NCBI GenBank assembly: GCA_029247025.1
Contig: JAQWLZ010000006.1
Span: 1 to 38,560, forward strand
Length of the DNA: 38,560 nt
Source of the DNA: Alphaproteobacteria bacterium
GTDB taxonomy: Bacteria > Pseudomonadota > Alphaproteobacteria > TMED109
Direction of reading: 5' to 3'
How positions within the stretch are numbered: position 1 is the stretch's first letter; every line of letters starts with the position of its first letter. The notes beneath the pieces are model-generated. The model did no database searches. It was not told the origin of the DNA and saw only the letters and a list, made by a program, of their open reading frames with translations. The position numbers and the translations under genes are program-made. Shown one piece after another: positions 12,356 to 16,436 of the stretch.

Positions 12356-12370
12356 AAAAATCTATTTCGC

Positions 12371-12453
12371 ACATGAATATGGCTTTATGTATTATTGCCT
12401 TCCGGTGCTGTTTTTTCAGCTCAATTTTCATGGCGGTTTAACCGGATAAGGAG
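12371..12453 (+). promoter_or_regulatory. Structured rpsB 5' leader, candidate S2 autoregulatory element
   Basis: This stretch is visibly richer in G and C than anything near it. CCGGT (12402-12406) pairs with ACCGG (12441-12445) around an inner hairpin GCTG/CAGC (12407-12410 with 12417-12420, T6 loop). The 3' arm can instead fold locally, CGGT-TTA-ACCG (12434-12444), three bases before the AAGGAG at 12448-12453. GCC (12397-12399) can pair with GGC at 12432-12434, crossing the long stem as a pseudoknot, or with GGC at 12381-12383. ACAT/ATGT (12371-12374 with 12387-12390) could close an upstream hairpin. S2 represses its own mRNA in E. coli. A conserved structured leader before rpsB has been proposed in Pelagibacter and marine metagenomes; identity with that motif is not tested here. 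Confidence 0.65.
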
Positions 12454-12461
12454 AATAAATT

Positions 12462-13418
12462 ATGACTATGCCTAATTATACTATGAAGGAACTACTAGAA
12501 GCTGGAATTCACTTTGGACATCAATTAAATAGGTGGAACCCTAAAATGGAACCCTATTTATTTGGAGAAAGAAATGGGATTCATATTATTGATCTACAAC
12601 AAACTTTTCCATTAATAAATAGTGCTCTTAAAGTTATAAGAGATATAGCAGCTGGGGGAGGAAGAGTGTTGTTTGTAGGAACAAAAAGACAAGCACAAAA
12701 AATAATTTCTGAAACAGCAATTAATTCTGGCCAGTACTATATGAATCATAGGTGGCTTGGAGGAACCTTAACTAATTGGAAAACTATTTCTAAATCTATA
12801 GTAAGGCTTAAAAATTATGATGAAATTTTAAATAAAGAAGATACAGGGTTAACAAAAAAAGAATTAGTAGGTATTCAAAGACAAAGAAATAAATTAGAGG
12901 CTTCTCTAGGTGGGATAAAAGATATGGGAGGTTTACCAGATGCTTTATTTGTTATTGATACAAATAAAGAGCATATAGCTATAAAGGAAGCTAATGTATT
13001 AAAAATACCTGTTATAGCAGTTGTAGACTCTAATAGTAATCCTGATGGGGTAGATTTTCCTATTCCAGGTAATGATGATGCAACTAGAGCTATTGCTATG
13101 TATTGCAAATTAATATCAGAGTCCATATTAGATGGTCTTCAAGCTTCATTTAGTAGTTCAGGAAAAGATATAGGCGAATCTGATCAGCTGAAAGAGAAGA
13201 TTGATACTAAAAAAGATAATGTAGATATTAAAGAAAATAATAATTTAAAAGAAGATAAAATTAATACAGATAAAAAAGATGATAAGCCAATTGAAAAAAC
13301 TAAAGCAGATAAAAACGATAATAAGAAAATTGAAGAAGCTAAGGTAGATAAAAATGTTTCTGACTTAAATGAAAATATAGAAAAACTAGATAAGTCTGCT
13401 GAAAGTGAAGATAAATAA
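12462..13418 (+). CDS. rpsB: 30S ribosomal protein S2 with a charged C-terminal extension
   Basis: S2 is a primary component of the small subunit head-body junction. Residues 1-230 are a complete S2: FTMKELL-like start [58 protein letters not shown] and [14 protein letters not shown]. Residues about 231-318 form a tail made almost only of K, D, E and N, with no predicted fold. E. coli S2 is about 240 residues. Longer, charged S2 tails occur in other alphaproteobacteria, but this tail's sequence looks low-complexity. ATG 12462 is favoured over ATG 12468 because AAGGAG (12448-12453) is eight bases away. tsf follows after 24 bases. Confidence 0.97.
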
Positions 13419-14379: not shown

Positions 14380-15132
14380 GTGGATTTAATGAAAGCAATA
14401 GATAAAAATATAAGAAATAATAATAATATTTTTTCTCGTGTTATGATTAAATTATCTGGCGAGGCTCTTCTTGGTAATAAAGAATTTGGAATAGATTCTG
14501 AAATTGTTGATAAAATAACTTCTGATATAGTTAGCCTGTCTAAAACAAATACAGAAATTTGTATAGTAGTAGGGGGAGGCAATATATTTAGAGGGGTTGC
14601 TGGAGCTTCACAAGGAATAGAAAGAGGTACAGCTGACAGTATGGGTATGCTTGCTACTGTAATAAATGCTATGGCTATTCAAAATTCTATTGAGAGACAA
14701 AATGTTAATTCAAGAGTTTTATCAGCTGTTCCTATGCAAACAGTTTGTGAACCTTTTATTAGACGTAGAGCAATAAGACACTTAGAAAAAGGAAGAATAG
14801 TTATATTTGCAGGTGGAACAGGTAACCCTTATTTTACAACAGATACAGCAGCAGCTTTAAGGGCCGCTGAAATGAACTGCAGTGTTCTTATGAAAGGTAC
14901 TAAAGTAGACGGAGTCTATGACAGTGATCCAATAAAATATAAAAATGCAAAAAAATATGATAAAATTACTTATTCAAAAGTCCTGTCAGATAATTTAGAA
15001 ATTATGGATGCGTCAGCAATATCATTGGCAAGAGATAATAATATTCCCATAATAGTATTTTCAATAAATAGAAAAAATGCATTGTCATCTATTATAGATG
15101 GGAAAGGTATAAAAACATTAATATCTAGCTAA
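14380..15132 (+). CDS. pyrH: Uridylate kinase
   Basis: PyrH phosphorylates UMP to UDP in pyrimidine nucleotide synthesis. It belongs to the amino-acid kinase fold. The visible motifs are MIKLSGEALLG (phosphate site), VVGGGNIFRGVAG, GTADSMGMLATVINA, FAGGTGNPYFTTDTAAALRA and MKGTKVDGVYDSDP. The start may be GTG 14380 (eight bases after the tsf stop) or ATG 14389. Both precede a poorly conserved, asparagine-rich N-terminus, and neither has a strong ribosome-binding site. The 250-residue length is normal. Its place between tsf and frr is the standard bacterial order. Confidence 0.97.
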   Translation: MDLMKAIDKNIRNNNNIFSRVMIKLSGEALLGNKEFGIDSEIVDKITSDIVSLSKTNTEICIVVGGGNIFRGVAGASQGIERGTADSMGMLATVINAMAIQNSIERQNVNSRVLSAVPMQTVCEPFIRRRAIRHLEKGRIVIFAGGTGNPYFTTDTAAALRAAEMNCSVLMKGTKVDGVYDSDPIKYKNAKKYDKITYSKVLSDNLEIMDASAISLARDNNIPIIVFSINRKNALSSIIDGKGIKTLISS

Positions 15133-15148: not shown

Positions 15149-15707
15149 ATGGAAGAAATAGATTTAACTGATATTAAAAGAAGAATGGATAACTCTTTAG
15201 AAGTTCTAAAAACTGAATTTTCTGGTTTAAGAACTGGAAGAGCTAGTGCAAACATGTTTGAAACAATTAATGTTAATGCTTATGGGCAGGTAATGAAACT
15301 TAGAGATTTAGCTACTGTTTCTATACCAGAGGCGAAACTAGTTTCAATCCAAGTATGGGATGCGGGTAATGTTAGTTTAATAGAAAAAGGTATACATGAA
15401 TCTGGTTTAAATTTGAATCCTCAGACTGAAGGTTCAATTATTAGAATTATTATGCCTGAACTAAATGAAGAAAGAAGAATAGAATTAGCTAAAACTGCTT
15501 CAAAATATGCAGAAAAATTCAAAAATAGCTGTAAGAAATGTTAGACAAGATGCAATGAATCTTGTCAAAAGACTTCATCAAAATAATAATTATACAGATG
15601 ATGAACAAAGAGAAAAAGCAGATGAGATCCAAAATTTAACAAATGAAGTTATTAAATCAATTGAAACTTTATCTCTTAGTAAAGAAGAAGAAATTAAGAA
15701 AGTGTAA
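15149..15707 (+). CDS. frr: Ribosome recycling factor, interrupted by a one-base frameshift
   Basis: RRF with EF-G splits post-termination ribosomes. The upstream frame (from ATG 15149) encodes LKTEFSGLRTGRASANMFE, VWDAGNVSLIEKGIHESGL and IIMPELNEERRIELAKTASKYAEKFK. It then runs into the wrong frame and stops at 15542-15544 (131 residues). The other frame carries the missing C-terminus, IAVRNVRQDAMNLVKRL to KEEEIKKV, ending at 15707. The total of 559 bases is one more than 186 codons. Removing one base near 15513-15525, which has A5 at 15513-15517 and at 15521-15525, gives exactly 185 residues, the E. coli length. AAAGGAAAG precedes the ATG. The gene is essential, so a sequence error is likelier than a true pseudogene. 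Confidence 0.9.
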
Positions 15708-15731: not shown

Positions 15732-16436
15732 TTGTATCCAGATCATGTTGCTATTATTATGGACGGAAATGGCAGGTGGGCAAAAAATAAGGGTTTACCT
15801 AGACTAGCAGGTCATAAGGCTGGTGTAGAACGTTTAAAAGAAATTGTAGAATCTACGGTTAATTGCAATATAAGTTTCTTAACTTTATATGCTTTTTCTT
15901 CAGAAAATTGGAATAGACCAAAGTTAGAAATAAATGACTTAATGAATTTACTTGAAAATTTTTTAAATAAAGATGCAAAAAAATTTATTAAAGAAAATAT
16001 AAGATTAAGAGTTATTGGAAGAAGAGATAGATTAAATAAAAGAATTATTAATAAAATAGAAAAATTAGAAATTAATTCTAATAAAAATAACGGATTAAAT
16101 TTAATAATAGCTTTGGATTATGGAGGTAGAGAAGATATTAGAAGCGCAATAATAAATATATATAATGATTTTGTTAGAAATAATAAATCTATTGAGAGGT
16201 TAACATTAGAAGAAATAGAAAACAATTTAATGACAAATGGTATTCCTAATCCAGATCTAATAATTAGAACAAGTGGTGAATATAGAATAAGCAATTTTTT
16301 GTTATGGCAATCTGCTTATTCTGAGTATGAATTTGTTAGTTGTAATTGGCCTGATTTTAATACTTCTACATATATAGAAGTATTAAAAAATTTTGAAAAT
16401 AGAGACAGAAGGTACGGTCAGATAAATGAATGTTAA
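15732..16436 (+). CDS. uppS: Undecaprenyl diphosphate synthase (cis-isoprenyl transferase)
   Basis: UppS condenses eight isopentenyl diphosphates onto farnesyl diphosphate to make the C55 lipid carrier for peptidoglycan and O-antigen. The 234 residues start almost at the catalytic core: HVAIIMDGNGRWAKNKG with D11 binding Mg-pyrophosphate, then LTLYAFSSENWNRP near 50 and the C-terminal signature DLIIRTSGEYRISNFLLWQSAYSEYEF. The start is TTG 15732 with AGGAG at 15719-15723, eight bases away; no ATG lies upstream in frame near it. Its last codons overlap cdsA by 11 bases. Confidence 0.97.
   Translation: MYPDHVAIIMDGNGRWAKNKGLPRLAGHKAGVERLKEIVESTVNCNISFLTLYAFSSENWNRPKLEINDLMNLLENFLNKDAKKFIKENIRLRVIGRRDRLNKRIINKIEKLEINSNKNNGLNLIIALDYGGREDIRSAIINIYNDFVRNNKSIERLTLEEIENNLMTNGIPNPDLIIRTSGEYRISNFLLWQSAYSEYEFVSCNWPDFNTSTYIEVLKNFENRDRRYGQINEC

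Follow-up and report, generated by a model that had tools for sequence, protein, structure and literature searches.

A one-base frame break in the ribosome recycling factor gene of a TMED109-group alphaproteobacterial assembly, most likely a consensus error

The window, that is, the whole 38,560-nucleotide stretch of DNA that was analysed, is contig C57 of a marine, metagenome-type assembly belonging to the TMED109 group of the Alphaproteobacteria (1.50 Mb, 73 contigs, 74.6% complete). An excerpt of PMC8879329 places the TMED109 order next to the Rickettsiales, with similarly low G+C. The nearest named relatives, as judged from the 5' piece of the ribosome recycling factor (RRF) gene, frr, are marine metagenome-assembled genomes, including Alphaproteobacteria bacterium TMED109 (NHFK01000016.1) and MarineAlpha9_Bin3 (PTKH01000004.1). 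Pfam matches around frr give the order rpsB, tsf, pyrH, frr, uppS, a cdsA-type CTP-transferase gene and dxr, which is an ordinary gene order, and both the pyrH upstream and the uppS downstream that are expected of frr are present. A match to the rpsB leader (Rfam RF01815, 43.9 bits, gathering score 40) is located at 12368-12462, just upstream of rpsB. The neighbours had been described as intact, and ORF and Pfam scanning found this for rpsB, tsf, pyrH, uppS, the cdsA-type gene, dxr, an M50 protease gene and bamA. The features of the locus are as follows:

14380-15132, + strand: pyrH-like gene (amino acid kinase family), intact, upstream of frr
15149-15544, + strand: frr 5' piece, 131 codons, which encode RRF up to about residue 122 and nine residues out of frame, ending in TAG
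15507-15707, + strand: frr 3' piece, in another frame, 66 codons that open at a chance ATG, comprising RRF residues about 123-185
15513-15517, + strand: first A-run (A5), where alignment to the frr of five same-genus genomes puts the extra base
15521-15525, + strand: second A-run (A5), produced by a substitution that is synonymous in the relatives' frame, the extra base lying elsewhere
15732-16436, + strand: uppS (undecaprenyl diphosphate synthase family), intact, downstream of frr

The frr gene occupies 15149-15707 on the forward strand, and its 559 bases amount to 186 codons plus one base. The ORF scan reads frame 1 from the ATG at 15149 to a stop at 15544 (131 codons), and the RRF-like residues end at about 122, followed by the nine out-of-frame residues KFKNSCKKC and TAG, while the C-terminal 60 or so residues run to 15707 in another frame. 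The window thus lacks an uninterrupted frr frame of some 185 codons, the gene being split at 15513-15517. Both pieces exceed the curated cut-off of the Pfam RRF family (PF01765, 29.7 bits), the 5' piece covering profile positions 1-110 with 128 bits and the 3' piece positions 106-163 with 43 bits. Solved RRF structures are mostly matched by the 5' piece up to their residue 122-128, and the 66-codon 3' piece aligns with residues 123-182 of Escherichia coli RRF (1ek8). This tail contains the positions that correspond to R129 and R132 of E. coli RRF, and a truncated product would be without both. R129 and R132 are important residues of the E. coli protein. The gene shares its neighbourhood and its Pfam matches with bacterial frr in general (PF01765, TIGR00496), and is about 95% identical in DNA over 661 bases to a whole same-genus copy; it differs from an ordinary bacterial frr in that its frame is split by one extra base. 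The original prediction of a one-base frameshift, with these 559 bases, the stop at 15544 and the C-terminus in a different frame, is therefore borne out, and its figure of about 124 RRF residues for the 5' frame is nearly right.

The genus group consists of seven genomes, including that of the window, and the frr region was detected in six of them. All five of the other same-genus frr genes are whole, each with one open frame of 185 codons, and have 81-95% DNA identity to the window's gene; no frr was found in the sixth other genome, G003, which is 61% complete. Comparison with close relatives, which had been proposed as a check, gave the same answer in five of five cases: one base fewer in the first A-run, so that the frame break is conserved in none of them. 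Alignment with these genes places the extra column in the first A-run, within the 15513-15525 interval that had been predicted, and the 185 residues expected after removal of one base are those that the relatives encode. Among 61 genomes searched, 51 yielded an frr-grade match, of which 50 are free of internal stops, the sole broken frr being that of the window; a further five had only a divergent RRF-like protein and five had no match at all.

No second frr or RRF-like gene was found in the host assembly (1.5 Mb, 74.6% complete), about a quarter of the host genome being possibly missing, and none of the seven genomes of the genus yielded a divergent RRF relative. Comparison with G004, the nearest relative (about 95% identical), shows codon differences that are mainly synonymous: 18 against 3 nonsynonymous over the 121 codons of the 5' part of frr, 5 against 2 over the 60 codons of the tail, and 23 against 5 for the whole gene. 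The tail contains no stop codon. Both halves thus retain a coding pattern, which gives no sign of old decay and means that any real loss would be very recent. An L-to-V change in the tail is private to the window, and a second change (K to E) sets it apart from the four readable relatives, the G004 base being ambiguous at that point; the two changes are 3' of the break, a pattern that would weakly fit relaxed constraint.

In sister genera, divergent RRF-like proteins of about 220-234 amino acids, starting MAGRGKEEEGYSVEAQENM, are encoded beside fliG (identified by Pfam scan in L043, and by FliG_N matches at those places in L045 and L046), and related genes occur in another alphaproteobacterial family (G035 and G266):

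L043:2828-3493, - strand: divergent RRF-like protein beside fliG, sister genus
L045:2826-3500, + strand: divergent RRF-like protein beside fliG, sister genus
L046:2900-3586, + strand: divergent RRF-like protein beside fliG, sister genus
L047:2968-3567, - strand: related RRF-like gene, other family
L147:1492-2091, + strand: related RRF-like gene, other family
L148:1468-2079, - strand: related RRF-like gene, other family

The sister-genus family scores 42.7 bits with Pfam RRF and 38.8 bits with NCBIfam frr, for which the cut-off is 149.1. The protein is present in 10 of the 28 genomes of the taxonomic family, a total of 28 that includes the window's own genome, and accompanies FliG_N in all eight genomes that have it; 18 of the 28 have neither, among them all seven genomes of the window's genus, and G019 and G022 (57-61% complete) have the RRF-like protein with no FliG_N found. 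It may be a branch of the ribosome recycling factor family with a link to the flagellum, and no literature evidently concerning such a protein was found. The G035 gene is near motA, motB and flhB, and G035 and G266 each have a second, more distant RRF-like match, that of G035 being near a DnaJ-like gene by eye. Only two of 289 genomes in a class-wide sample give a match at E 1e-12. Five incomplete sister-genus genomes (G013, G019, G020, G022 and G026) yielded the RRF-like protein only and no true frr, probably owing to missing contigs.

The window was aligned with G004 over 29 kb at 94.4% identity, with six gap openings, five of which were placed in ORFs. One of these is at the last bases of its ORF, three compensate for one another within one ORF and the fifth is that of frr, so that the aligned neighbours, as predicted, have no other uncompensated mid-gene frame change. 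When the comparison was extended to 205 kb and 193 G004 ORFs (175.8 kb coding), frr was the only clear uncompensated mid-gene break. Six further ORF flags (L097 6321-6671, L107, L125, L139, L140 and L144) are no more than about 55 bases from the end of an ORF; as a group they fit start-site or stop-site differences. Two other candidates were rejected as frame breaks: the L096/L109 gene, with many compensating gaps in a divergent stretch, and L098:8478-9155, in which the indel is in a 5' extension and an ATG with an upstream AGGA is visible by eye. Against G005, G006 and G002, at about 79% identity, blastn alignments were too noisy for frame accounting and were used for frr alone. A 20-mer next to the break site matched two loci in viral contigs, both unrelated and neither of them frr. 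The frr break is isolated in the assembly, and this neither proves nor excludes error, since an occasional consensus indel is expected and frr was picked because it looked broken.

The printed gene would thus be an ordinary alphaproteobacterial frr with a single base too many in a short A-run, and that base would be a sequencing or assembly (consensus) error, the living organism making a normal 185-residue RRF. We infer that the cells lack this base, and a one-base consensus error is very probably the explanation. RRF is essential in well-studied bacteria. The original prediction had left three explanations open, and sequence error is now the best supported, the base being private to this assembly and all five of the same-genus frr genes found being whole; against it, the assembly is not generally indel-ridden and an error-prone platform is not evident. 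The same cleanliness relative to G004, together with the two possible window-only amino-acid changes in the tail, speaks for an insertion that is real in the sampled DNA, as a recent private or minority mutation without compensating mechanism, and natural mutation commonly adds or removes a single base in A-runs. Such a change, carried by dead or dying cells or by a strain variant that entered the consensus, would be lethal or very recent, and is unlikely given an essential gene, no second copy found and a coding pattern in both halves. Decay tolerated through a second copy, also proposed, finds no support in the searches of an assembly that is 74.6% complete, or in the coding-like state of both halves.

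Rescue of a real break by slippage during transcription or by a +1 shift of the ribosome within A5-TTC-A5, the third proposal, is likewise unsupported and is very improbable. The A5TTCA5 arrangement occurs in no other examined ORF of the window, and a part of PMC5009743 describes slippage on long A-runs that rescues reading frames in AT-rich endosymbionts; like those genes, frr is in an AT-rich genome with its indel in an A-run, whereas here the run is only A5 and unconserved, the gene is essential, and the frame correction described there occurs at long poly(A) runs. None of the relatives shows this configuration, and A5 is an ordinary feature of intact genes, the 35 other ORFs counted in the window holding 157 A5 runs and 125 longer sense-strand runs (76 A6, 38 A7, 9 A8 and 2 A9). 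Neither a long slippery run nor a strong stimulatory structure is present, the RNA fold around the site being unremarkable (z -1.28, 22 of 200 shuffles as good), and a late shift at the stop would exchange conserved residues, among them the one that corresponds to E. coli R129. According to an excerpt of PMC6260861, slippage by E. coli RNA polymerase is undetectable on fewer than 7 Ts or 8 As, and the portion of PMC5574713 consulted reports that slippage climbs exponentially with run length and that E. coli transcription deletions fall mostly outside such runs. A genuine two-chain RRF, assembled from 131-residue and 66-residue products, is the least credible reading of all: the ATG at 15507 does open a 66-codon ORF overlapping the first, but no ribosome-binding sequence precedes it by eye, no relative has the split, and the cut at about residue 122 would be inside a predicted helix (107-144) rather than a loop, according to a model of a relative's complete RRF (three sequences; mean pLDDT 62.8, with 84-95 in the blocks that cover residues 121-180). 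A literature search for an RRF frameshift in metagenome-assembled genomes returned no match.

Consensus error thus ranks first and a private real mutation second, with recoding or a split protein remote, and the frr break is most likely not a new biological mechanism. It is very improbable that a free-living AT-rich alphaproteobacterium produces RRF from an frr that is really frameshifted, whether by slippage or a +1 shift on an unusually short A5 run or as two chains; if this were true, an essential translation factor could depend on slippage at a five-base run. As it stands, the break is of little significance: it is a probable error in one assembly, as a result of which annotation would call frr broken or missing.
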